From assembly GCA_018222405.1 (NCBI GenBank), contig JAAFAI010000002.1:248001-312000 (forward strand): DNA of 64,000 nucleotides, written 5' to 3'. Every line of letters starts with the position of its first letter. Within the stretch, counting starts at the first letter, position 1. This stretch comes from Gammaproteobacteria bacterium (lineage in GTDB: Bacteria > Pseudomonadota > Gammaproteobacteria > Enterobacterales > Alteromonadaceae). The notes under the pieces are model-generated. The model was not told the origin of the DNA, ran no database searches, and was given only the letters and a program-made list of their open reading frames with translations. Both the position numbers and the translations under genes were made by a program. Shown here one piece after another: positions 23,851 to 36,621 of this stretch.

Positions 23851-24237
23851 TTACCAGCAATTCGCTGGTGTGCGATTCATTGATTCGTCGAGTGTCAGGG
23901 TTGTGCAACCTGTATCATTAGTCTGACTTCCTTTCGCCGTGGCGGTAAGTGTAAACGTGGTGGCGCTAACGTTACTTACACTAAACGTATAAAAATCCGA
24001 TGCCGGAATTCCGATATCCGCTGCGCCACCGTAGGTAATATTTTGCAGCCTGTAGTTCTCCTGGCTCATATGCATTTGCATCAGTGCTGTCTGAGCATCC
24101 CCCCGTCTGGATTCCCTTACCTGCCCCTGATACGCCGGCACAGCAATCGCAGCCAGAATCCCCATTATTACAACGGCGATCATCAGCTCTATTAGTGTAA
24201 AACCTTTCACATTTAATGTTGCTTGCATCGTGCTCAT
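23851..24237 (-). CDS. Type IV pilin-like protein, PilE family
   Basis: A 128-residue prepilin with a short positively charged leader and the cleavage/methylation site G-FTLIELMIAVVIMGILA (Glu at +5). The globular part ends in the family pattern DTGCTTLTLDESMNRTPANCW, with the C-terminal disulfide-bonded cysteines. It resembles the PilE minor pilins found at the ends of fimU-pilVWXY1E loci. It is leftward, convergent with ispH and divergent from the accessory prepilin operon starting at 24386. PilD-type processing is expected from the leader. Confidence 0.88.
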   Translation of the reverse strand: MSTMQATLNVKGFTLIELMIAVVIMGILAAIAVPAYQGQVRESRRGDAQTALMQMHMSQENYRLQNITYGGAADIGIPASDFYTFSVSNVSATTFTLTATAKGSQTNDTGCTTLTLDESMNRTPANCW

Positions 24238-24385
24238 ATACCCATTAATTGAATCAAATACCCTGCGACATACCTTTCAGGTCTAAAATAACATAAGTCA
24301 GAAGGCGCTGAGTTCGGATTGTTATGCTATTAGTGTACTCAATAATCTGAAAAGTAACGTTATAAATTTCATTAAAAGGTATGTT

Positions 24386-24919
24386 ATGTATTCACCCAGG
24401 TATCAACAAGGGGTGTCACTGATAGAAGTGTTAATCGTTGTCGCCATTATAAGTGTAGTACTAACGGTAACGGCGCCTTCCGTTGTTTCTGTACAAAAGC
24501 AAATGGCGGTAAAAGGGGCTGTTGAGAATACTTATTTCCTTTTGCAACTGGCGAAAAGCAGTGCCATCAGACAAAGTTCAGATATGCTGGTTGATGCCAA
24601 CGTCACTACCACGAGTTGGTGCGTTGGGTTAACCGATACAGCCAATTGTGATTGTGCGGTGGTGAATAGCTGTACGGTCGACGGCCGGGAGCAGGTCGTC
24701 AGATCAGCAGACTTTAAACAAATCGTGATGCAGAATCTTACATTCGATGCCAATAACCAGGTGGTGTTTGATGGCGTGCGCGGCATGGCTGTGCAAGGAG
24801 CTGCTTCGGTGGAGTTTAGCGACGAAGCTAACCATAGCGTCAGAATGAATATTGCCGCCACCGGGCGTGTATCGATGTGTAATGTGAAAGGTGATATTGG
24901 GAGTTACCCTGCGTGTTAA
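24386..24919 (+). CDS. FimT/GspH-like minor pseudopilin (first gene of accessory operon)
   Basis: A 177-residue prepilin with the leader MYSPRYQQG and processed N-terminus VSLIEVLIVVAII. The body has the GspH/FimT pattern and six or more cysteines, with CDCAVVNSCTVDG in the middle and a C-terminal Cys. It is clearly paralogous to the leftward gene at 28738-29259, which shares the WC-G-TD, CDC-VVNSCTV-G blocks. It overlaps the next gene by 7 bases. Such proteins are minor pilins that prime pilus assembly; FimT members can also bind DNA during uptake. The role here is inferred. Confidence 0.82.
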   Translation: MYSPRYQQGVSLIEVLIVVAIISVVLTVTAPSVVSVQKQMAVKGAVENTYFLLQLAKSSAIRQSSDMLVDANVTTTSWCVGLTDTANCDCAVVNSCTVDGREQVVRSADFKQIVMQNLTFDANNQVVFDGVRGMAVQGAASVEFSDEANHSVRMNIAATGRVSMCNVKGDIGSYPAC

Positions 24920-25542
24920 ACGGCAAGCGACAGTCAGGCTATACCTTAATTGAAATCATGATTGCTATGGTGCTGGCCATTGGCTCGCTGGCGGCGGTGT
25001 CTTCGCTGGTGGGATACGGTATTGGCGTTAACGGCAATCTAATTAACAGTGCACGACTGAATGAAGAGCTGGGTAATGTTTACTCTCTGGTGCTCAGTGA
25101 TTTAAGACGAACCGGCTATTCTGGCAGTACTGTAGCCATGGTAACCGATCCAGAAGCTAACCCGTCGCCATTTAACAGTTCTATTTCGGTGAGTGAATTT
25201 CCGGGAGAAGCCGCAAACAGCTGTATTGTGTTCGCCTATGACAGCAACGATAACGGCGTACTGGATAACGCTGCACCGGATGAAAATTTTGGTTACCGCC
25301 TGCGCGACGGCACGGTTGAGATCAGGCGCAATGGCGCAGCGTGTATTGACACGGGCTGGGAGGATCTCACCGACAGCGATGTGATTGATGTAACGAATTT
25401 AAGCTTTACGGTTAATCAGGTGGTGGATAATGGTATTACCACCACATCAATCACGGTTGTGCTCAATGGCGAACTGGCAAGCAATGACAACTTTTCCCGG
25501 GAGTACCGAACGGTAGTGGTAGTGAGAAATTATGATAGCTAA
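24913..25542 (+). CDS. PilW-like minor prepilin (accessory operon)
   Basis: A 209-residue prepilin with the leader ending QSG and helix YTLIEIMIAMVLAIGSLAA. The later sequence has the PilW-type start NSARLNEELGNVYSLVLSDLRRTGY and a NDNGVLDN segment resembling an acidic Ca-binding loop. The start is GTG at 24913 within the stop region of the preceding gene, which implies translational coupling. It is shorter than the canonical PilW at 30100-30948 (282 residues). Confidence 0.8.
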   Translation: MLNGKRQSGYTLIEIMIAMVLAIGSLAAVSSLVGYGIGVNGNLINSARLNEELGNVYSLVLSDLRRTGYSGSTVAMVTDPEANPSPFNSSISVSEFPGEAANSCIVFAYDSNDNGVLDNAAPDENFGYRLRDGTVEIRRNGAACIDTGWEDLTDSDVIDVTNLSFTVNQVVDNGITTTSITVVLNGELASNDNFSREYRTVVVVRNYDS

Positions 25543-26656
25543 ACGTCCTCAACCGCACAAACAACGCGGCGCCGTTATTCTTACTGCGGTTATCCTGCTG
25601 CTTACGCTTGCTACGCTGGTAACACTCTATACCGGCCGGGTTAAATCCTTCGAAAATCAAATTACACTGAATACGCAAAACCGCGCACTTGCCTTTAATA
25701 TAGCTGAAGCTGGCCTGATGAAAGCGTTGGGTGTTCTAAGCGAGAATCCACGCTGGGATGGCGCTCAGTTTACAGAAAACTTACCAGGGCTGGGCAGCTA
25801 TACCGTCGGGGGCGCTTGGCAGGTGATTACCCGTGAGTCCACCACCATGCGTTTAATTACCCTGCAATCAAACGGCACCTCACCAGATGGTTTGTCTACC
25901 GTTGCAGTGCAGGAGCAGGCGCTACTTTATTCGGTTATCGCTAATCCGCCGGATGTTCCACTGATTGTTGCCGGTGGTCTGGATGTGGGGGGCAACTTTG
26001 AAGTGGTGGCCAACCCTAATGGGGGCGGCGAAGGGGTGCCTTTGTCTATCTGGACCGATCTGGATGTGGATATGACGAACGGAAGCGGTACCACTTGTGG
26101 CTTGCAGGAATTCACCGATGGTAATTGCAGTAGCGATCCCTATTCTGAAAAAGGTTTCCAGGATCTCGATATCCTCGATAATGATCCCGACTTTCCGGAT
26201 GACCTGCTGGAATATATTTTTAACGTACCAGAGACCGAATGGGCCTCGTTACGTGCTGATGCTGAGCAGCTGTTAAACAGTTGTGCAACGCTGGGAGCAG
26301 CATCGATGGGTCTGATATGGGTAGATGGTACCTGTCATATTAACGCTGGTACCGTAGTGGGTAGCGCAGCGGACCCGGTGATCTTAATTGTTACCGATGG
26401 CGATCTGACCATGAACGGTGGCGCCCAGATCAATGGTATGGTGTTCTCGTTTCGTAAGCCCACCACGATGGCCGATTTTGAAATCAATATGATTGGTGGT
26501 GCCCGGGTTAATGGCGTGGTGGCATCTAATCACCCTGTTGGTCATGCCAATGGTACGTATAATTCGGTTTATGACACGGATGTGCTGGACCAGTTACAAC
26601 AACATGACGCCTTTCAGCGCGTCGCCAGGGTCCCCGGCAGTTGGCGGGACTTTTAG
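25532..26656 (+). CDS. PilX-like pilus assembly protein with extended C-terminal region (accessory operon)
   Basis: A 374-residue protein that starts like PilX, with a charged leader (KPQPHKQ-type, ending QRG) and a hydrophobic helix AVILTAVILLLTLATLVTLYTG lacking the Glu+5 of other pilins, followed by the FNIAEAGLMKAL helix typical of PilX. The C-terminal two thirds is unusual: it contains acidic low-complexity stretches and a beta-rich segment (IVAGGLDVGGNFEV, LIVTDGDLTMNGGAQINGMV, MIGGARVNGVVASN) that looks like short parallel beta-helix turns. It is almost twice the size of the canonical PilX at 30945. It overlaps the preceding gene by 11 bases. Confidence 0.75.
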   Translation: MIAKRPQPHKQRGAVILTAVILLLTLATLVTLYTGRVKSFENQITLNTQNRALAFNIAEAGLMKALGVLSENPRWDGAQFTENLPGLGSYTVGGAWQVITRESTTMRLITLQSNGTSPDGLSTVAVQEQALLYSVIANPPDVPLIVAGGLDVGGNFEVVANPNGGGEGVPLSIWTDLDVDMTNGSGTTCGLQEFTDGNCSSDPYSEKGFQDLDILDNDPDFPDDLLEYIFNVPETEWASLRADAEQLLNSCATLGAASMGLIWVDGTCHINAGTVVGSAADPVILIVTDGDLTMNGGAQINGMVFSFRKPTTMADFEINMIGGARVNGVVASNHPVGHANGTYNSVYDTDVLDQLQQHDAFQRVARVPGSWRDF

Positions 26657-26664
26657 GAGGTCGT

Positions 26665-28725
26665 ATGCATACGCGTGGTTTTTCTCTTATTGAAGTAATG
26701 ATCGCATCACTGATTATCATGCTGGGCGTGACAGGGTTTGTAACCCTGCAATCAGTCTATATGCGCAGCGATGCAGATACCAACTTGCGCCAGGTGGCTC
26801 TGCAACTGGCTCAGGAGAAATTTGACGATCTCCGCCAGTTCGAAGTTGTGGAAACCACCGCAGGGGTAAGCGCCTATAATGACATTGCCAACAATGCCGG
26901 CGGCGCCATCGCGTCGGGGCCAGTGGATGTCACGATTGGCTCCGACGGTAAATCTTACCAGTTTGTTCGCAGCTGGACGGTGGCCGATCAGTATTTTGTC
27001 GATACCTCAGGCGATGGCGTGGAAGATACCTGGATGGACGCGGCGACACTTGGCGCGTTGGGTTTGGGAGTGCCCGTTACACCCGCACAAAAACAGGTGA
27101 CAGTGACGGTGGGCTGGGCAGATATTGACGGCAATAATCTGACTGTTGCTATGGATGGTAACTTTGCGCCGGTCACCGCCGGGCGCAGTTTTCAGGCTTC
27201 CAATGAAACCGATAACGCCAAAACTCAGCCGGAGGTAGCCTATACTCCGGGGCTGGCACCAGACGTAATTTCTTACGATCTGGGTAACAATGAGAGTATA
27301 GAGACCAGTAAACCGGTACCGGATATTTCCAACAAGGGCGACAATAATGTGGTGCAGTTTGAAACCATCCGCTATGAAAGTGGTGCGCAAATCAGCGAGA
27401 AGCTTGAGCAGGAAGACTTTTTAACGGTTAACTGTAGTTGCAAACTGGCAGGCACCGGTACCGGTTACACGCCAGCAATGACAGTGCTTGACGGCGATGA
27501 AATGGTAGTACAACCCGGCCGTCAGGAAACTAAAACCGTGGGGGTGGTGGCTAACAGTCAACAGCCCGCGTTGTGCGATGTATGTTGTCGTGATCATCAT
27601 GACACAGCAGCGATGGTAAGCAACGAAGAATATTATCGTACAGAAGGCGGGTTGCCCCATGGCCATTATCAAAACCTTGGTGGCGGCAGTTTTGCGCTGG
27701 CGTCCGGTGTGGGCGACCCATATACAGAAGCCTGTCGTTTTAAACGTATAGACGGTTTTTACGAGCTTTACCCCGACTGGCAACTTATCGACATTATTGA
27801 ATTTGAAACGACTTATTTAAATACTACCACGGCTTTAGATGGGTACCGGACTTATACTGAAGGTGTGATTGCCAGTAAAATTACCGGTAGCCAGCCACCG
27901 GCCAAACCCAATGATCGTGACATTCTCGTGCCACCTGGCGGGTATCAGTTGATTGCCCGCGGGATATACCTTGATCGTATGACCAGCTCACATCTGGCGG
28001 CGGTGAAAACCAAGCTCGCTGCTAACGATCCGGAATGGAAAGCCATCGTTCCCTTCTATGATGTAAACCTGACACTATTGTCTAACTGGCAGTCAGCCAA
28101 TAATACGGTTGCAACGGTGACAAATGAACCTATTCAGACCGTTATTGACCCGGTCAACAATTACTATGGCACTTACAGTCGTGGCCGCGCTGAAGCCCTT
28201 ATAGACGGTGTTACCAAAACGCAGGTGGCCGCTTATGCCAATAATGCGGGCATTACCGGCACAGCGCCCGTATCGCCGTTCGAATACTATAACTCAATAG
28301 CCGATAACACCCTTGAAATCGAGGTGGACAGTAAATCCGGAACGCAAAAATTCTTTGGCCTGATAGGCGATATCAGTTGCCTTATTACACAAGCCGGCGT
28401 CACCAAGAGTTGCGAGACTAATAATACTAATAAAGCGGAATATGTGGATTTAAGTAGTCTGGTGGTGTTTATTACTCCGAGTCAGTTTACCTGTCCGATT
28501 ACCATCCCGAAAGGTAGATCAACGCCGTTTTTCAGCTGTACCAACGTATCTGAAAACTGGACCGGGACTATTCAGTTCCAACTGTCTAAACCGGGGTATG
28601 GTGTAAGCATCAAGATTCAGCAGCCCGATGGGTCTATAGCTAACACCGATACGATCAGACTGACAACGGGATTAAATTCGACTTCGAACAGAGACTACAA
28701 CCTGATCATCGAGTTATTTGAATAA
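26665..28725 (+). CDS. Large PilV-like prepilin with Cys/His-rich central region (accessory operon)
   Basis: A 686-residue protein from the ATG at 26665, which follows AGGAGG; an upstream in-frame TTG at 26641 is less likely. The leader MHTRG and helix FSLIEVMIASLIIMLGVTGF are those of PilV/GspI prepilins, but the family is usually 150-220 residues long. The centre has CSC at 257-259, C304/C307/C308 followed by RDHHD (to 313) and LPHGHY (H332, H334), suggesting a metal site. The C-terminal third carries four or more further cysteines and a beta-sandwich-like end. With no PilY1 in this operon, it may serve as the tip adhesin. That is inference. Confidence 0.75.
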   Translation: MHTRGFSLIEVMIASLIIMLGVTGFVTLQSVYMRSDADTNLRQVALQLAQEKFDDLRQFEVVETTAGVSAYNDIANNAGGAIASGPVDVTIGSDGKSYQFVRSWTVADQYFVDTSGDGVEDTWMDAATLGALGLGVPVTPAQKQVTVTVGWADIDGNNLTVAMDGNFAPVTAGRSFQASNETDNAKTQPEVAYTPGLAPDVISYDLGNNESIETSKPVPDISNKGDNNVVQFETIRYESGAQISEKLEQEDFLTVNCSCKLAGTGTGYTPAMTVLDGDEMVVQPGRQETKTVGVVANSQQPALCDVCCRDHHDTAAMVSNEEYYRTEGGLPHGHYQNLGGGSFALASGVGDPYTEACRFKRIDGFYELYPDWQLIDIIEFETTYLNTTTALDGYRTYTEGVIASKITGSQPPAKPNDRDILVPPGGYQLIARGIYLDRMTSSHLAAVKTKLAANDPEWKAIVPFYDVNLTLLSNWQSANNTVATVTNEPIQTVIDPVNNYYGTYSRGRAEALIDGVTKTQVAAYANNAGITGTAPVSPFEYYNSIADNTLEIEVDSKSGTQKFFGLIGDISCLITQAGVTKSCETNNTNKAEYVDLSSLVVFITPSQFTCPITIPKGRSTPFFSCTNVSENWTGTIQFQLSKPGYGVSIKIQQPDGSIANTDTIRLTTGLNSTSNRDYNLIIELFE

Positions 28726-28737
28726 CAGCGGCCTCGC

Positions 28738-29259
28738 TCAGCACATCTTGTATGGATGGATTGGCTGGGTGAGGGCACAGATCCTCACCCGGCCGGTGTT
28801 GCTGACAATCACTTTGTAGGACTCAAGAGTATTAGAGAGTGTCAAAGCGCCGGCATAGCCCTGAGCAAGACCGCGGGGCGCAGCAAAGCGTGACTGATTA
28901 TTGTGGGTAAAGGTAGAGCCAGACAATAAAGCAAAACGATACTGCTGATAGGAAATGACCTTTTCCACGCCTTCAACCGTGCAGCTGTTTACGACCTGGC
29001 AGTCACAGTCAGGCTGATCGGTAATGCCCATACACCACTGATTGCCGGTAACCATATCCACCACTACTGTTTGCTGGCGGGTAACCGCGAGGCTGCGTGC
29101 CCCCTGCATCTGAAAATAAACCGACTGAATAGCCCCTTTTAATTCAACATTTTTAATCATATTGCCAAAGCCAACTAGCCCCTGACTGGCAATAATGGCG
29201 ATGATTGCAACCACTATCAGCAATTGCGTAAGTGAAAAACCACGAACCTTTACCCTCAT
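28738..29259 (-). CDS. FimT/GspH-like pseudopilin with Gln at the usual Glu+5 position
   Basis: A 173-residue leftward prepilin with leader MRVKVRG and helix FSLTQLLIVVAIIAIIA. At position +5 of the mature protein it has Gln where nearly all type IV pilins have Glu. The body is paralogous to the gene at 24386-24919, sharing CMGITDQPDCDCQVVNSC-type cysteines and a C-terminal KMC. It converges with the large PilV-like gene (12 bases between stops) and is divergent from the canonical pilV operon. It may be a non-incorporated pseudopilin or a decaying duplicate. Confidence 0.78.
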   Translation of the reverse strand: MRVKVRGFSLTQLLIVVAIIAIIASQGLVGFGNMIKNVELKGAIQSVYFQMQGARSLAVTRQQTVVVDMVTGNQWCMGITDQPDCDCQVVNSCTVEGVEKVISYQQYRFALLSGSTFTHNNQSRFAAPRGLAQGYAGALTLSNTLESYKVIVSNTGRVRICALTQPIHPYKMC

Positions 29260-29470: not shown

Positions 29471-30103
29471 ATGAGTAAGGCGCAGCGAACGCATTACAGT
29501 CTGGGCAAGGAAACCGGAGTCGGCATGGTCGAAATTCTGGTTAGTCTGTTTGTGCTCACCATCGGCTTGCTGGGCGTGGCATCCCTGCAGTTTACCGGCA
29601 CTTTTAACAACGTACAGGCTGCCAGTCGCAGCCAGGCTGAACTGGTTGCCCGTTATGTCTCTGAACAGATGGTCAGTGCAGCACAACCCGCTCAGGCCGA
29701 CGATGGCTGGGAAGTGGATGATGCCTTCTTTAATACCGATTTTTTCAATTTTGAAACCCTAACCTGTAACGATAGTAACCTTTATCAGTGTTACTGCCTG
29801 ACTTTACCGGCCACTGTTCCAAACTGCAGAACCGGTAACTGTTCCAGCGCAGAAATCGCCGAATTCAGTGGCTGGGAAGCCAGTTGTCAGGCTGTTGGCA
29901 GTAACCCGAACATGCGTATCAGTGTTAATTGTAACGACCGCGACAACGGTGATGCCAAGGCGTGTTCAAGTGGCTCGCTTGTAACCATTGCTGTGAGCTG
30001 GCCGCTCAAAGCCGACAGCCAGACCAATATTGCTAATGACAACCGTTGTGCCATTGGCGCTGATGCCAATCGAGCCTGCGTGGTAAAAGAGGTCACGCTG
30101 TGA
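29471..30103 (+). CDS. pilV: Type IV pilus minor pilin PilV
   Basis: A 210-residue prepilin with leader ending KETG and helix VGMVEILVSLFVLTIGLLGVASLQ, the classic PilV pattern. It has many cysteines in the globular region. The ATG at 29471 has a GCAGGAGG site; an ATG four bases earlier is out of frame. It is the first gene of the tightly packed pilV-pilW-pilX-pilY1-pilE set, where minor pilins form the initiating tip complex with PilY1. It overlaps pilW by 4 bases (GTGA). Confidence 0.9.
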   Translation: MSKAQRTHYSLGKETGVGMVEILVSLFVLTIGLLGVASLQFTGTFNNVQAASRSQAELVARYVSEQMVSAAQPAQADDGWEVDDAFFNTDFFNFETLTCNDSNLYQCYCLTLPATVPNCRTGNCSSAEIAEFSGWEASCQAVGSNPNMRISVNCNDRDNGDAKACSSGSLVTIAVSWPLKADSQTNIANDNRCAIGADANRACVVKEVTL

Positions 30104-30948
30104 AATCCCAGTCTGGTTTTTCATTGATCGAGCTGATGATTAGCCTGGTGCTGGGGCTAATCATTCTGACCGGTGTCATCCAGGTGTTTGTCAGCACCCG
30201 CGCCACCAACTCGCTTAATCAGGCAATCGCCGAAGTTCAGGAATATGGCCGGTATATAACACTACGCTTGCAGGACGAGCTGCGTGAGGTCGGGCGCTAC
30301 GATCTCACTACCGCTAATATTGATAACTCCACCGATCTGGTACTTGAGTCCAGTTTTGTATTGCGTCAACCGGTAGCCCTTGCCAATGACTACGCGGCTG
30401 CGGCAACACTGGGCAGTATCGAGGCAACCGGCACCGCCAGCGACGAGCTGGTGGTCAATTTGCTCGCCGAGCAGGACTGTACCGGCAATCCCTTCGGTAC
30501 TACTGCGCCTCAGCAGTTGCATATCGTCAATCACTATTATGTAGAAAATGAACAGCTTAAATGTATGGGATATAACGGTCGCTATTTACGCGGCGTCAGT
30601 GGTAACCCGACACCGAGTAGCGAAGTTGTATTACTCGACGGTGTAGAAAGCCTGCAAGTGGAATATGGCTTGTCTGGTGATGTAAACGACAACGATGGCA
30701 GGGTGGTGACTTACGTGGATGCCAGCGGACTCAGCAATGCCCGTCTGGCCAACCAACAGGTAGTGTCTATTCGTTTGGCGCTGTTGCTTAAAAGCGCGCC
30801 TGCCAATCTACAAACCATCGCCAATGACCAGGTCAGGCTGTTGTCTGAAGCGCCGGTAACGCTGGATAAACAGCATTACTATCAGGTATTCACGGTATCT
30901 GTAGCACTGCGCAATAGCCTCAATTACGTTGGGAGTGCCGTATTATGA
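30100..30948 (+). CDS. pilW: Type IV pilus minor pilin PilW
   Basis: A 282-residue prepilin with leader MKSQSG and helix FSLIELMISLVLGLIILTGVIQVFVSTRA, followed by the PilW signature LQDELREVGRYD. Length and layout match PilW of Pseudomonas and relatives. The start is GTG overlapping the pilV stop, and its own stop overlaps the pilX ATG (ATGA), so the operon is translationally coupled. It acts in the minor-pilin priming complex at the pilus tip. Confidence 0.92.
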   Translation: MKSQSGFSLIELMISLVLGLIILTGVIQVFVSTRATNSLNQAIAEVQEYGRYITLRLQDELREVGRYDLTTANIDNSTDLVLESSFVLRQPVALANDYAAAATLGSIEATGTASDELVVNLLAEQDCTGNPFGTTAPQQLHIVNHYYVENEQLKCMGYNGRYLRGVSGNPTPSSEVVLLDGVESLQVEYGLSGDVNDNDGRVVTYVDASGLSNARLANQQVVSIRLALLLKSAPANLQTIANDQVRLLSEAPVTLDKQHYYQVFTVSVALRNSLNYVGSAVL

Positions 30949-31520
30949 AGAACTCACAACAGGGTATGGTGTTGGTGTTTGCACTTATTATTCTGCTGTG
31001 TGTCACCTTATTAGGGGTGGCCGCAGTGAGCAGCAGTTTGTCGCAGTCTAAAATGGCCAGTGCCGTGCAGGCTCAGGGCTTAACGTTTGATGCCGCCGAA
31101 GCGGCAATTGCCGGTGTGGTATTTGAAGCCGAAGACCAGATTATTCTCGCCGACGTGAACCTGGACGACCCGCTCACGGCCGCCCGTCAGGGCGTAGAAT
31201 TTAATCCGCTGACTGATACGCTGGAGTGCGTTAATAATACCGACTGGATCAATCGACAGTTAACCAGTGCTGGCCTGAAAAAAGGTCAGCAAAACACGGC
31301 TGCCGGCAACTTTCATAACCAGCCAAATGTAGCCAGCTGGTCACGCACGGCGTTTGTCAGAGAAAAACCTTGTCGCGGCTCAAGTAACGTCATTGGTAGC
31401 GGTGGACTGCGCTGTCACGTTTTTGTGGTGCGTGGTTGCGGACAAATTGAAGGCAAGCGAACCATCACGGCAAATTCACTTACCGTAGCCGTCTTTGGTC
31501 CTTCATCGGAGGCACAATGA
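30945..31520 (+). CDS. pilX: Type IV pilus assembly protein PilX
   Basis: A 191-residue protein with leader MKNSQQG and helix MVLVFALIILLCVTLLGVAAV, which lacks Glu+5 as PilX/GspK-like proteins do, then the DAAEAAIAGV helix. By analogy with GspK it caps the minor-pilin complex. It overlaps pilW and pilY1 by 4 bases each. Confidence 0.9.
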   Translation: MKNSQQGMVLVFALIILLCVTLLGVAAVSSSLSQSKMASAVQAQGLTFDAAEAAIAGVVFEAEDQIILADVNLDDPLTAARQGVEFNPLTDTLECVNNTDWINRQLTSAGLKKGQQNTAAGNFHNQPNVASWSRTAFVREKPCRGSSNVIGSGGLRCHVFVVRGCGQIEGKRTITANSLTVAVFGPSSEAQ

Positions 31521-34500
31521 TGAAACGATTTTCCCCGGCCTGGCTGTTAAGCATTTTTCTGTGTGTCGTTGCGCAACATGCCAGTGGCGATGACCTGGAT
31601 ATTTTTATCGGTACGTCAAACGCTGCGCAGACCTATAATCCTAATGTACTGTTTATTATGGATACCTCCGGCAGTATGGGCAGTAAGGACGGTGGAACTG
31701 AGTCGCGCATGTTACGCGTGCAAAATGCCCTGAAGGATGCCCTGGCGTCGGCCACTAATATTAATGCGGGGTTGATGCGCTTTTCGGATCACGGTGGCCC
31801 TATTCTTTACCCCACCACGGATATCGACAGAACCATAGATGCGCAATTAAGCAGTTCAACCAATGCATCGGACAATGACGGCTACGAAATGGCCTCATCG
31901 GTTTATACCGGCACAGATGAAGTGGTGATCAGCTTTTCTACCACCCCGGTAACCTCAGCATTTCGTTTTGCCGATTTAAATATACCGCGAGGGGCAACAA
32001 TTACTTCTGCCTACCTCAAGTTTACTTCAGCCCAGTACAATATCGCCAGCACCAATATCACCATTGCCGGAGAGCTGGTGGGTAACAGCTCTGCGCTGTC
32101 TGGCGCCGCCGGTTCAATTAGCAGTAAAACACAAACCAGCGCTGTGGTTGACTGGAGTTCTGACAATGATTTTCCGTCTGACGGTGATGAAGTCAGTTCG
32201 CCGGATATTGCCCCGGTTATCCAGGAAATCATTAATCAGAGCAGTTGGTGTGGCAACAATGCCCTGACAGTACTGGTCAATGGTGAAGGGACCAGTACTG
32301 CCAGCAACCGCCGCGTGATGGCCTATGACGATGGCACCGGTACCGCGCCGCAACTGGTTATTTCCTATGACCAGACCAACGCCACCGGCTGTGTTGCCGG
32401 CAGTGCGCAATACCAGATAGCTGACTCCTACGATAACGTTGAGGAAGCCACCAACGGTTGGGAGTCCACCGGCCGCGAACTGACTTTCCGGGACAGTTCT
32501 AATAACTATATAGGTTTACGTTTTACCGACGTGAATATTCCTCAGGGGGCAACGTTAACCAACGCTTACCTGGAGTTTACCGCCTATGATACGGACACCA
32601 GAAACGGTGCCACCATGCTTATCAGAGGGATCGACAGGGATGACATTGGCAATTTCAGAAATCACGGTCGCAATGACCTTCGGGACATCGGTAAAACCGC
32701 AGGCGTGACCTGGAGTATCCCTGACTTCAGGCGCAACAGGACTTATCAGACCGGTGACCTGAGTAATATTATTAACGCGATCGTTGGCCGCAGTGGCTGG
32801 CAGGCGGGCAATGCCCTGGGGTTTGTATTAAGTGACTTTGATGAGTTACGGGGCGCTTATTCCTACAGTGGTAAACCTTCCCGGGCTCCGCGGCTCTTCA
32901 TTGAATTTAACGGCAATGCTACGGCTGGCAACAGCTTATCGGTCAGGGATTTGCTGATTAGTCAGGTTGATGATCTGTCGGCCAACGGCTTAACGCCCAT
33001 TGTTGATACCCTTTATGAAGCCGCATTGTATTATGGCGGCCGGCAGGTGGACTATGGCCTAACCCGCGGTAACTCCTCGGTGTCCTCCAGTGTACGTCGA
33101 AGCACGCGGGTCAGTCACCGCGATGCCTATAGCGGTGCTGATTCGGTGTTACCCTACGGCTGCGATCCAAGCTATCTGAGCGATTATGACTGTATCAATG
33201 AGTACATACCGAGCGGCGCACAGTACATTAGCCCGGTTACCGATCTGCAGTGCCAGACCAATAACCACATTGTGCTGCTCTCAGATGGCGAAGCTAACAA
33301 TAATCACAGTGCGGCAAAAGTGCAGGCGTTACTTAACAGTACGTGTCAGAACGCAGGTTCAGGTGAATACTGTGGGCTCGACTTAGTGGCTAACATAAGT
33401 AAAGCCGCTACCTCGGTAATTGGCCCTAAGGTGACAACCCATACCATCGGCTTTGCGGCCAACAATAACGCTAATAATTTCCTGTATCGACTGGCATTGC
33501 AAAGCGGTGGCGGTTTTTATACGGCGAATAACTCAACCGATTTGCTGAATGCCTTTGAGACCATATTAAGAGCCGTTAAAGATGTGAATGCGACATTCGT
33601 TTCTCCCGGGGTAGCGGTAAACCAGCTTAACCGCCTGACTCACCAGGACGAACTTTATTACGCACTGTTTAAACCGGCCGAAGGTACCCTGTGGCCGGGT
33701 AACCTGAAAAAGTATCGCATTTCCGGCGATACCGTGTACGACCAGAACGGGCTGGCCGCGATTGACTCCAATACCGGTTTCTTCGCCGACAGTTCGCACA
33801 GTTACTGGTCGCTGTTTCAGGACGGTGCGGATGTTCGGGAAGGCGGTGCTGCATCGCTGTTACCGCTATCCCGCAATGTTTACTTTTTTGATGGTCCGGG
33901 CGGTATTGTTTCAAGTGCCAATCAGGTACATGAAAATAACAGTGCGATTACTACTGCCACCATGGATACTGATGGTGAAGCCGATCCACAGGGACTGCGG
34001 GAGATCCTGCTTAAGTGGACACGGGGCGTCGACATTAAAGACTACGATGGTGATGGCAACATTACGGAATCCCGTTTGCAAATGGGCGATCCCATTCACT
34101 CTCAACCGGTGATCGTCAATTACGGTGTTGATGATTCGGTGATATTTATTGCTACCAATCACGGTTTCCTGCATGCCTTTGATGCAGAAACCGGTACCGA
34201 ATATTACTCGGTGACGCCTAGATCCCTGCTGTCCAATATCAAGGATTTCTATCAGGATAACTCCAGCTATCGTCATATTTACGGGCTGGATGGCCATATG
34301 GTGTTACGTGAATTCAACAATAAAAAGTACCTGTATGTGGGCATGCGTCGTGGTGGCCGGGATTATTACGTATTTGATATCACCAGCAAAACCTCACCTT
34401 CTCTGGTCTTTAAAATTGAGGGGGGCAGCACCGGGCTGGAAAAACTGGGGCAAACCTGGTCACGCCCCATTATTACCAAAATGAAAATGGGCGGAACAAC

Positions 34501-35590
34501 TTATAATGTAATGATTGTGGGTGGCGGCTATGATGAAACGCAGGACACTAATCAGGTTAAAACGGCGGATGCGGTAGGCAATGCGGTGATGATATTTAAC
34601 GCCGACACCGGCGCTTTGTTGTGGCAGGCATCAAACACCGGCGCTGACCTTAATTTATCTGACATGCAGTATTCGATTCCGGGTCATATCGCGGCTATCG
34701 ATCGTGACAGTGATGGCCTGGTGGATCACCTTTATGCCACCGATATGGGCGGTCAGGTGTTCCGCTTCGATGTTTATAACGGTAAGTCCGGCAGCGATTT
34801 TATTAAAGGCCAGCGGATTGCTGATTTAGCCGGCACGGGGAATGCGGATAACCGCCATTTTTATTATGGTGTTGACGTGGCTGAAGTGGCTCTGGGCAGC
34901 AGCAATTTTTACGCGGTTGTGGTTGGCAGTGGTTGGCGAGCAAACCCCCTTGATGAAATAGTGAATGACCGCTTTTATATGATTAAGGACACAGGCGTAT
35001 TTTTGCCTGATACCAATGGCGATTTTACTTTCCCTCCAACCATTACCGAAGACGACTTATATGATGCCACCAGCCATCATCTGACCAATAGCAATGACTC
35101 GACCCGGGCGCTGGCCATTACTGAATATGAAAGTAAACAGGGCTGGTATCTTAAAATGCAGACTGCTGGGGAGAAAATTCTCTCTTCCCCCGTGATTGTT
35201 AACTATAAGGTATTTTTTACCAGTTACGTGCCCGCGGCGAGCAGCACCAGTGCCTGTGCGCCGCCGGCCGGTAACAGCCGCGCTTACCTGGTGAATCTGG
35301 TTGACGGCAACGCGGTGGGCGATCTCAACGGCGATGATGAGCTTGACCAAAATGATCGCTTTGCAACGTTGACCCAAACCGGTATTGCCCCTGATACTAA
35401 GATCCTTATTGAAGATGCAACCAATCCAACCATCTGTTTGGGCACGGAGTGTGTATCGGCGGTTGTGCCGGTGGATGAAGATGGCAACGAAGAGGCCTGT
35501 GTGTCAGATTTCGAATGCCTGAGTCAGAATATATTTGGTCGCTACCAACGTGTCATGCGCGGTAGCTGGTCAACCGAAGTGGAGCAATAA
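31517..35590 (+). CDS. pilY1: Type IV pilus tip adhesin/biogenesis factor PilY1 with inserted tandem modules
   Basis: A 1357-residue exported protein with signal peptide cleaved near HASG-DDLD. A von Willebrand A domain begins at about 44 with the MIDAS motif DTSGS (49-53), but the rest of it (T493 in GLTPIVDT, D590 in LLSDGE) resumes only at about 475. Residues ~116-466 hold two tandem modules, each with a version of FRFADLNIPRGATITSAYL. The C-terminal half (about 690-1200) is the PilC/PilY1 beta-propeller, with a calcium loop DRDSDGLVD near 1062. Another acidic loop, DLNGDDELDQND, lies near the end. PilY1 governs adhesion, surface sensing and pilus extension. Confidence 0.92.
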   Translation: MMKRFSPAWLLSIFLCVVAQHASGDDLDIFIGTSNAAQTYNPNVLFIMDTSGSMGSKDGGTESRMLRVQNALKDALASATNINAGLMRFSDHGGPILYPTTDIDRTIDAQLSSSTNASDNDGYEMASSVYTGTDEVVISFSTTPVTSAFRFADLNIPRGATITSAYLKFTSAQYNIASTNITIAGELVGNSSALSGAAGSISSKTQTSAVVDWSSDNDFPSDGDEVSSPDIAPVIQEIINQSSWCGNNALTVLVNGEGTSTASNRRVMAYDDGTGTAPQLVISYDQTNATGCVAGSAQYQIADSYDNVEEATNGWESTGRELTFRDSSNNYIGLRFTDVNIPQGATLTNAYLEFTAYDTDTRNGATMLIRGIDRDDIGNFRNHGRNDLRDIGKTAGVTWSIPDFRRNRTYQTGDLSNIINAIVGRSGWQAGNALGFVLSDFDELRGAYSYSGKPSRAPRLFIEFNGNATAGNSLSVRDLLISQVDDLSANGLTPIVDTLYEAALYYGGRQVDYGLTRGNSSVSSSVRRSTRVSHRDAYSGADSVLPYGCDPSYLSDYDCINEYIPSGAQYISPVTDLQCQTNNHIVLLSDGEANNNHSAAKVQALLNSTCQNAGSGEYCGLDLVANISKAATSVIGPKVTTHTIGFAANNNANNFLYRLALQSGGGFYTANNSTDLLNAFETILRAVKDVNATFVSPGVAVNQLNRLTHQDELYYALFKPAEGTLWPGNLKKYRISGDTVYDQNGLAAIDSNTGFFADSSHSYWSLFQDGADVREGGAASLLPLSRNVYFFDGPGGIVSSANQVHENNSAITTATMDTDGEADPQGLREILLKWTRGVDIKDYDGDGNITESRLQMGDPIHSQPVIVNYGVDDSVIFIATNHGFLHAFDAETGTEYYSVTPRSLLSNIKDFYQDNSSYRHIYGLDGHMVLREFNNKKYLYVGMRRGGRDYYVFDITSKTSPSLVFKIEGGSTGLEKLGQTWSRPIITKMKMGGTTYNVMIVGGGYDETQDTNQVKTADAVGNAVMIFNADTGALLWQASNTGADLNLSDMQYSIPGHIAAIDRDSDGLVDHLYATDMGGQVFRFDVYNGKSGSDFIKGQRIADLAGTGNADNRHFYYGVDVAEVALGSSNFYAVVVGSGWRANPLDEIVNDRFYMIKDTGVFLPDTNGDFTFPPTITEDDLYDATSHHLTNSNDSTRALAITEYESKQGWYLKMQTAGEKILSSPVIVNYKVFFTSYVPAASSTSACAPPAGNSRAYLVNLVDGNAVGDLNGDDELDQNDRFATLTQTGIAPDTKILIEDATNPTICLGTECVSAVVPVDEDGNEEACVSDFECLSQNIFGRYQRVMRGSWSTEVEQ

Positions 35591-35595
35591 ACGTT

Positions 35596-36057
35596 ATGAC
35601 CAAGCCCTCAGGGTTTACTTTAATTGAAGTTATGATCGCAGTGGTCATCGTTGGCATTATCGCCGCTATTGGTTATCCGTCGTACCAGTCAATGTTGGTC
35701 AGTACTAACCGCAGCACTGCCCAGGCTGATCTGATGGGTTTTGCCTCGGCAATGGAGCGCCACTATGCTACCACGTTCAGTTATGCCGGCGCCGCCGCTG
35801 GCGGTAGTGATACCGGAGCGCCCGCGGTGTTTGCAGCGCATTCGCCGTCCACAGAGCCGGCTGGTAAGAAAAAATACACCCTGACTATTCATGCGGTCAG
35901 TGCTGATGGCAGCAGCTATGAGCTGCGAGCGGTGCCGGTGAGTGGCAGCCCTCAGGCGGGGGATGGTACTTTGTATTACTTTAGTGACGGGCGAAAAGCC
36001 TGGGATCAGAACAGTGATGGAAGTGTTGGCGGCAGCGAATACTGCTGGTCCTGCTAA
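35596..36057 (+). CDS. pilE: Type IV pilus minor pilin PilE
   Basis: A 153-residue prepilin with leader MTKPSG and helix FTLIEVMIAVVIVGIIAAIGYPSYQ, then STAQADLMGFASAMERHYAT, the PilE hallmark. The C-terminus has YYFSDGRKAWDQNSDG and ends in CWSC. It is the last gene of the pilVWXY1E set, 5 bases after pilY1, and its 3' end faces the fimU-like gene. It belongs to the minor pilins required for normal pilus display, not to the major pilin. Confidence 0.92.
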   Translation: MTKPSGFTLIEVMIAVVIVGIIAAIGYPSYQSMLVSTNRSTAQADLMGFASAMERHYATTFSYAGAAAGGSDTGAPAVFAAHSPSTEPAGKKKYTLTIHAVSADGSSYELRAVPVSGSPQAGDGTLYYFSDGRKAWDQNSDGSVGGSEYCWSC

Positions 36058-36063
36058 GCGGAT

Positions 36064-36621
36064 TTAACTGCAGGTTAATGCCGCGCCGGTGTGGTTTTCA
36101 TTAATGCCGTCGTCATCTGAATCCTGAGCGATGGCAATTTTACCGTAGCCATTGATAATCAGGCCAACCGCCTTATCGGCTTTACTGGTGTCATCGCAAA
36201 TCGTGAACGTTGTGGTGACATTAGCGCCGCCTCTGACGTCAAACACAAGTGCTTTGGACGGCGCGTCAATCTTAACGCTGGCATGCAGCTTTTCGGTGGA
36301 GCTCAGCAGGGTTTCGTTTGAGCTCCGTTTACCGTCGCCGTCCACGTCATAAAAAGCCATGCTTGGGTAAGTCCAGTTGCTGAGACAGTTCGTATAATCC
36401 TGTGAAGGACATACCACTACTTCGGTTTGTTCTTCCATGGCTTTAAAGCGGGCGAGGCGGGTCAGTGCGCTTAGTTCGTTAATTTCTTTAGTCAGTATAG
36501 AATGGTTAATGAACCCGCGGGCGCCAGGCACAACCACGCCGGCAATGATACTTAGCACCGCAACGGTTATCATAAGTTCGATCAGCGTGTAGCCTGAGTG
36601 GCGCATAGAAAACATCTTCAT
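36064..36621 (-). CDS. FimT/FimU-like minor pilin (GspH family)
   Basis: A 185-residue leftward prepilin with a Lys/Arg leader ending RHSG and helix YTLIELMITVAVLSIIAGVVVPG. The globular part has GspH/FimU features: ELSALTRLARFKAMEEQTEVVVC, FYDVDGDGKRSSNE and C-terminal cysteines. In related genomes a FimU/FimT protein belongs to the pilVWXY1E set; here it is inverted, 6 bases from the pilE stop. M1 (36621) and M4 are both possible starts. Confidence 0.85.
   Translation of the reverse strand: MKMFSMRHSGYTLIELMITVAVLSIIAGVVVPGARGFINHSILTKEINELSALTRLARFKAMEEQTEVVVCPSQDYTNCLSNWTYPSMAFYDVDGDGKRSSNETLLSSTEKLHASVKIDAPSKALVFDVRGGANVTTTFTICDDTSKADKAVGLIINGYGKIAIAQDSDDDGINENHTGAALTCS

Follow-up and report, generated by a model that had tools for sequence, protein, structure and literature searches.

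In the type IVa pili (T4aP) of Pseudomonas and Myxococcus, PilY1 is both tip adhesin and primer of assembly, and Vibrio-type competence pili are primed by an operon without PilY1. Here we analyse a block of four minor-pilin genes (T1, W1, X1 and V1; positions 24386–28725) in a 64,000-nucleotide stretch of contig JAAFAI010000002.1 (assembly GCA_018222405.1), hereafter the window, where it lies beside a canonical pilV-pilW-pilX-pilY1-pilE operon (pilVWXY1E). Judged by its genes, the block is a PilY1-less minor-pilin operon of the competence type, a known kind, present here as a second tip and priming set beside the canonical one. We consider it probable, with appreciable doubt, that T1 (or a second FimT-like pilin, T2), W1, X1 and V1, together with the divergent pilin pilE0, constitute a PilY1-independent tip and priming complex of the competence type for the single T4a pilus machine of the cell.

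VC0858–VC0861 of Vibrio cholerae are overlapping fimT-pilW-pilX-pilV genes, and a pilT mutant that lacks them is severely reduced in competence pili (PMC13249403). V. cholerae PilX is a capping pilin that lacks the glutamate at position 5 (Glu5, or E5), and V. cholerae FimT binds DNA (PMC12040237). The comNOPQ operon of Haemophilus influenzae, the first two genes of which are ppdA and ppdB, is part of the competence regulon and needed for DNA uptake (PMC12616744). Myxococcus xanthus has three minor-pilin clusters serving one T4aP machine, each with a PilY1 (PMC7541494). Escherichia coli K-12 carries ppdA-ppdB-ygdB-ppdC, in an order that matches T-W-X-V.

Gene content and conservation of the block

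The genes and modules referred to below are the following.

23851–24237, reverse strand: pilE0, divergent type IV pilin, ComP_DUS/PilE-like, 128 aa; Pfam N_methyl and ComP_DUS above cut-off
24386–24919, forward strand: T1, FimT/GspH-like minor pilin, 177 aa, Glu5, motif GRVS; Pfam GspH and N_methyl
24913–25542, forward strand: W1, PilW/PpdB-like minor pilin, 209 aa; Pfam N_methyl, PpdB model over residues 5–206 below cut-off
25532–26656, forward strand: X1, PilX-like minor pilin, 374 aa, without Glu5 (cap type), predicted C-terminal beta-solenoid; PilX_N above cut-off
26665–28725, forward strand: V1, PilV-like minor pilin, 686 aa, pilin module (about residues 1–160) plus extension; N_methyl, PilV model over residues 4–77 below cut-off
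27157–28338, forward strand: V1 core extension, residues 165–558, with conserved Cys/His/Asp; from alignment of homologues, without Pfam match in the window protein
28327–28722, forward strand: V1 C-terminal module, residues 555–686, with four invariant cysteines; from alignment, missing in 7/23 homologues
28738–29259, reverse strand: T2, second FimT/GspH-like pilin, 173 aa, GRVR intact, Gln at position 5; Pfam GspH
29471–36057, forward strand: canonical pilV-pilW-pilX-pilY1-pilE operon, the neighbouring comparison set; Pfam/NCBIfam
36064–36621, reverse strand: T3, FimU/GspH-like pilin 3' of the canonical operon, degenerate motif GKIA; Pfam GspH

The first-pass annotation had described overlapping or nearly touching genes for FimT-, PilW-, PilX- and PilV-like prepilins between 24386 and 28725, and this description is borne out. 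All four open reading frames (ORFs) are intact; T1 and W1 share 7 nt, W1 and X1 share 11 nt, and X1 and V1 are separated by 8 nt. Each of the four has N_methyl or PilX_N above the Pfam cut-off. The order is that of fimT/ppdA-pilW/ppdB-pilX/ygdB-pilV/ppdC, and in NCBIfam the best whole-length partners of T1 and W1 are E. coli PpdA and PpdB, respectively (the latter near end-to-end), both below curated cut-offs; the N-terminus of V1 matches the PilV model, also below its curated cut-off. We place the V1 start at the ATG at 26665, which has AGGAGG just upstream; an alternative TTG at 26641 would give 694 aa. The annotation was equally right about the size difference, with 374 and 686 aa for X1 and V1 against 191 and 210 aa for X2 and V2 of the adjoining operon, and about the absence of pilY1: ORF and domain calls place this gene only in the separate neighbouring operon, between pilX and pilE. 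The upstream neighbours ileS, lspA, fkpB and ispH share 98–100% identity with their counterparts in Alteromonas oceani S35, and the window most likely belongs to Alteromonas.

To assess conservation, 147 genomes of the family (Alteromonadaceae) were sampled, of which 24, the window genome included, have a long V1 homologue at E ≤ 1e-90. The loci read came from 18 of the remaining 23 genomes with a long V, plus two short-V loci; they were chosen for the V match, and V is thus present by selection. Every gene of the unit pilE0-T-W-X-V is present, in unchanged order and with pilE0 divergent, in 20/20 of these loci, and the position of the unit varies: beside ispH, beside pilY1-pilE, or apart from both. 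At the level of the order, the core extension of V1 is found in 30 of 394 genomes, 26 of them outside the family, and spans at least four bacterial families. The five-gene unit is present in all 15 loci read among those 26; in a few, the best label of the T or W gene is another T or W. The recurrence of pilE0 with T1-W1-X1-V1 is more than chance, and pilE0 is part of the conserved unit. The complete second set of four genes in the first-pass annotation stands as a set, with the correction that the unit also includes pilE0 and that T2 closes the block.

Among close relatives, W, X, V and T2 are intact in all six sampled, and the ratio of nonsynonymous to synonymous divergence (dN/dS) relative to A. 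oceani is low in T1, W1 and X1 (0.04–0.06). Broken or scattered remnants in relatives, which the annotation had named as a result that would refute it, are not what the 20 family loci and the 15 loci outside the family contain; the exception is T1, missing from four relatives (L093–L096) that keep T2, W, X and V. Six Vibrio-like loci have, by position and length, a divergent pilin beside T-W-X-V as in the block, with an X of 421–440 aa, and five of them are flanked by genes that we take, by eye, to be dnaJ and dnaK. Unlike the 686-aa V1, their V proteins measure only 136–167 aa. Since X is large in all six, operons of this type commonly have a large PilX, and what sets the block apart is its giant PilV.

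The enlarged pilins and the FimT copies

Position 5 is Glu in T1, W1 and V1, Thr in X1, and Gln in T2, which lies outside the four-gene run. From its sequence, the lack of Glu5 in X1 is a capping-pilin signature, as in V. cholerae PilX. The predicted model of X1 is confident only C-terminally, with block means of 52–91 over residues 221–370, values below 50 before that, and an overall mean of 46. The top structural matches of the C-terminal model are ice-binding-type beta-solenoids, with bactofilins tied among them, at Z 6.2–7.6, a middling range in which scores can reflect a common arrangement. A relevant comparison is ComZ of Thermus thermophilus, a GspK-like competence tip pilin without E5, the solenoid of which is reported to be nearest to the ice-binding-type fold (PMC6561018). 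X1 (Thr5) likewise has no E5, and its predicted C-terminal solenoid may be similar, but X1 is smaller than ComZ and has no sequence match to it: a search of the Protein Data Bank (PDB) with the X1 profile gave no match to ComZ (best E 0.24), and neither ComZ nor GspK is among the structural matches listed. On the model, X1 may end in a ComZ-like beta-solenoid.

V1 is a modular pilin, with an N-terminal pilin module and additional C-terminal sequence of about 500 residues; short relatives lack this extension, and others have a different one. Six cysteines, His311 and Asp313 (C257-x-C259, C304-x-x-C307-C308-x-x-H311-x-D313 and C357) occur in 40/40 aligned homologous extensions, not all of which are independent, and 38/43 long V proteins have D or N at position 310. 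Disulfides and a metal site are both possible roles for these residues. The Pfam scan of the core extension returned no match in the window protein, and across homologues its best weak match was Big_2 (E 0.039, in 2 of 22). Profile searches of the PDB yielded one chance-level match (E 0.63) for the core extension, only pilin N-termini for the whole V protein, and for the C-terminal module designed repeat proteins (E down to 6e-10, with no stretch passing alone) and antibodies, which we judged spurious. A plasmid search with the extension gave no match, and an AlphaFold model of V1 made from six sequences has a mean pLDDT of 34.

In three other Alteromonadaceae loci (L082:7442-9529, L083:9304-11403 and L084:9477-11489), PilV proteins of 670–699 aa carry a different long extension, and the one profile alignment reported between them and the V1 family covers the pilin module only. 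Large modules of two kinds or more are thus attached to PilV in this family.

The extension is also where the window and A. oceani diverge strongly. DNA identity per 150-nt window is 0.88–0.99 outside it, falls to 0.63–0.77 for starts between 27451 and 28501, and is 0.83–0.85 at the shoulders of this stretch. The V1 protein is identical to that of A. oceani at 159/160 positions in residues 1–160, 238/298 in residues 261–558 and 100/128 in residues 559–686; for A. lipolytica the corresponding figures are 116/160, 232/298 and 92/128, so that the two comparisons give similar values in the distal parts and far apart ones in the pilin module. From the one close pair compared, exchange of the distal V1 extension is likely. 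Flanking synonymous divergence of 0.07–0.37 suggests that the window and A. oceani come from separate, or almost separate, species.

Adhesive domains grafted onto pilins have been documented, for example in PilB of Streptococcus sanguinis (PMC8179133). As in V1, a small pilin module there carries a bulky C-terminal module; unlike PilB, V1 gave no Pfam match to a vWA, a lectin or any other recognised domain. We offer as a tentative proposal, in which our confidence is low, that the V1 extension could be a hitherto undescribed receptor module of the pilus tip, one doing the job of PilY1 in its absence and exchanged as a cassette between close relatives; a single Alteromonas pilus machine could then be given a tip with either PilY1 or a diversifying PilV.

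The FimT-like pilins differ in the putative DNA-binding motif G-[RK]-x-[RK]. In the window it is degenerate in T1 (GRVS) and T3 (GKIA) and intact in T2 (GRVR). At least one FimT of the block has the motif in 13/13 Alteromonas loci, and T3 of the PilY1 set has it in 0/9 (in L093–L096, T3 lies beyond the stretch compared). Of the three FimT paralogs in Xylella, a single one binds DNA (PMC9956873), which by analogy makes a division of labour plausible. Position 5 of T2 is Gln rather than Glu in 7/7 clade sequences, which is unusual for a non-capping pilin.

A role of the block in DNA uptake would follow from analogy with the competence operons, and the possibility must be taken seriously that it instead forms a tip for adhesion or motility, with the V1 extension as a modular adhesin and the resemblance to competence operons reflecting ancestry only. 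The large, modular and strongly diverged extension would fit such a function, for which S. sanguinis PilB provides a precedent, as would the degenerate motif of T1 and the lack of a conserved competence promoter (see below). However, T2 retains GRVR in all six clade relatives sampled, including the four that have lost T1, and the named operons nearest to the block function in DNA uptake; we regard this alternative as possible without adopting it.

PilY1, history of the block and pilus machines

The first-pass annotation had proposed a survey of relatives for the block with and without pilY1, and both arrangements occur. PilY1 was sought with Pfam PF05567 in 49 genomes with a long-V block, and with the window PilY1 as query in the seven genomes of the family, and in 6 of the 15 of another family (f25), in which Pfam had found none. 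PilY1 is present together with a long V in 27/49, one of which (G016) has only a 418-aa piece, and undetected in 22/49, seven in the family and 15 in f25. The window query likewise found nothing in these 13 genomes and corrected one false negative of Pfam (G031). Outside the family, PilY1 was found in 5/5 genomes of f15, 2/2 of f16 and 4/19 of f25. PilB above its curated cut-off is present in 15/15 of the f25 genomes without PilY1 and in 4 of the 7 such genomes of the family. In G052 and G139, which are among the Alteromonadaceae with the other long PilV extension, PF05567 likewise went undetected, and the window query matched an unrelated-looking 948-aa frame in G139. PilY1 is present in the short-V Alteromonadaceae tested (6/6, plus G346 and G356), and 8/18 further genomes had it.

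Loss of the PilY1 set can be traced close to the window. In A. oceani S35, positions corresponding to about 29700–35694 of the window are missing, a deletion of about 6 kb that removes pilW, pilX and pilY1, and a PilY1 query of the whole S35 genome (completeness not stated) gave no match elsewhere. At the junction (L091:9807-10364) there is a short shared stretch, and pilV is fused to pilE in frame. In A. lipolytica only the last 119 or so residues of PilY1 remain. Both species keep T1, W1, X1, V1 and T2. As far as gene content can tell, PilY1 is dispensable to the block.

X1 is 62–72% identical in 13/20 loci of other genera and below 30% over partial matches in four genomes of the same genus. 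The X1 tree divides the genus into two groups, with the window clade among other genera; two changes are needed, and 0% of the bootstraps have one. In the ispH tree the genus stays in one piece, but weakly supported (57/67). Horizontal replacement is likely on these grounds, although the other Alteromonas copies sit on long branches, for which fast divergence could also account. Both the identities and the conflict between the trees could also be taken to mean that the block is an acquired, partly redundant xenolog, maintained by recombination without a distinct role while pilVWXY1E does the work. We consider this unlikely: W, X, V and T2 are intact in all six close relatives, dN/dS is low, two relatives dropped the PilY1 set and kept the block (but four lost T1), and transfer itself is open to the doubt raised by the long branches.

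As for the machines, the genome has five ORFs of the assembly ATPase family, three GspE-type and two shorter, PilT-sized, and three GspF-type platform ORFs. The type II secretion system (T2SS) cluster (L143) holds one ATPase/platform pair and its own GspE, GspG, GspH and GspK above NCBIfam cut-offs, with genes at the GspG, H, I, J and K positions. The second pair we assign, from gene order and an MshE-related domain, to an MSHA-type cluster; it and the T2SS cluster each have their own minor pilins. The last gene of the MSHA-type cluster (L144:1-3565, C42) encodes a candidate tip lectin, 1188 aa or longer, with three Laminin_G_3 stretches. The third platform gene sits with a PilA-like pilin, with no pilB between pilA and pilC. 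The third GspE-type ATPase is a 739-aa GAF-MshEN-T2SSE protein (L146:2710-4926, C24) that scores below the PilB cut-off; a PilB above the TIGR02538 cut-off is also missing in 25/58 genomes searched. This ATPase, the one remaining PilB candidate, is encoded next to a 7TMR-DISM/GGDEF protein and at a distance from the pilA-pilC cluster. Once the T2SS and MSHA-type genes are assigned in this way, one T4aP machine is left.

In and around the block there is no assembly ATPase, platform or gsp-cluster gene (GspE, GspF, GspG or GspK-family), and X1 matches PilX_N with no match to the Pfam T2SSK model at E ≤ 0.1. Without machine genes of its own, the block is most simply read as a second tip set for the T4a pilus. 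Of the two interpretations in the first-pass annotation, an alternative tip on the same pilus is accordingly the better supported: one T4aP machine is left, and in V. cholerae a PilY1-less set built in the same way is required for normal piliation by the competence pilus (PMC13249403). The other, a separate secretion-like pseudopilus, was rejected as very improbable: the GspH/J/K/I-like subunits without PilY1 are indeed T2SS-like, but the block has no ATPase or platform gene, the T2SS elsewhere has its own subunits, and the closest homologues of the block are T4aP minor pilins.

Proposed role and comparison with known systems

If the block is a PilY1-independent competence-type tip and priming complex, X1, without Glu5, would enter first and cap the filament, and V1, W1 and a FimT would stack beneath it and start polymerisation of PilA. 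The predicted solenoid of X1 and the large extension of V1 would then be displayed at the filament tip, where the extension could take the ligand-binding role that PilY1 has on the other set. The FimT, most likely T2 with its retained GRVR, would provide the DNA contact for uptake. Pili started by the block and by pilVWXY1E would thus have different tips on the same shaft.

Several observations weigh against this proposal. Priming of T4aP is within the reach of T2SS minor pilins as well (PMC13249403), and the set may therefore not be indispensable. For X1, Foldseek gave no match at E ≤ 0.001, and bactofilins score as high as the ice-binding folds. T2 lacks Glu5 and T1 the motif, so that neither FimT is a textbook one, and the motif does not separate the sets family-wide: it is present in 33/52 T1, 12/12 T2 and 19/32 T3 sequences (counted at 150–280 aa with a long enough match), and was rejected as a family-wide discriminator on these counts. 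A CRP-S-like match with two mismatches (TGCGA-N6-TTTCA, 24264–24279) lies between pilE0 and T1 and is shared by the window and A. oceani, but the CRP-S competence promoter is not conserved in the family. Only 9/48 intergenic regions have a site within two mismatches, where about two are expected from shuffles (shuffled rate 4.3%, with single-base composition alone preserved; counts were used because one 14-nt region scored 99 inflates the means). Five of the nine are Vibrio-like, 5/6 Vibrio-like loci carrying such a site; as the excess is mostly Vibrio-like, a conserved promoter in the family was rejected. In a promoter scan, promoter-like sites were not above shuffles.

The same holds for the relation to PilY1. 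G304, G496 and 6/6 Vibrio-like genomes have a short V and no PilY1, and the length of V thus does not predict the absence of PilY1; a strict replacement of PilY1 by a long V was rejected on this ground and from the 27 genomes that have both. A. alba and two metagenome-assembled genomes of the same clade (L093, L094 and L096) keep PilY1 at 92–93% identity, contrary to a general trend of loss. Together with exchange evidence from a single pair, this slightly lowers our confidence and the odds that we give to the receptor-module proposal.

Genomes in which both sets adjoin and share one machine, and relatives without the PilY1 set, provide a natural system for assessing the contribution of PilY1 and whether one filament receives different tips from different minor-pilin sets. 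In marine bacteria, a PilV extension that varies would further be a candidate receptor, whether for surfaces, DNA or phages. Among the matches listed in a literature search covering papers outside most subscription journals, and as far as their excerpts tell, no paper is evidently about a V1-type PilV extension or the double arrangement in Alteromonas.

Compared with VC0858–VC0861 of V. cholerae, the block has the same gene order, style of overlap and E5-less PilX in four genes without PilY1, but differs in having a pilVWXY1E operon alongside and a duplicated FimT. H. influenzae comNOPQ is likewise a PilY1-less competence minor-pilin operon. E. coli K-12 shares the four-gene order, but there the operon lies beside recC, ygdB and ppdC are small (408- and 324-bp genes), and no large X or V is present. 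As in the FimU-PilVWX-PilY1 complexes of Pseudomonas and Myxococcus, four minor pilins would prime a T4aP, and several sets can serve one machine; unlike the block, each M. xanthus cluster has its PilY1. On this comparison the operon type is known and a large PilX is normal in it, and the uncommon parts are the giant PilV and the setting beside a PilY1 set.

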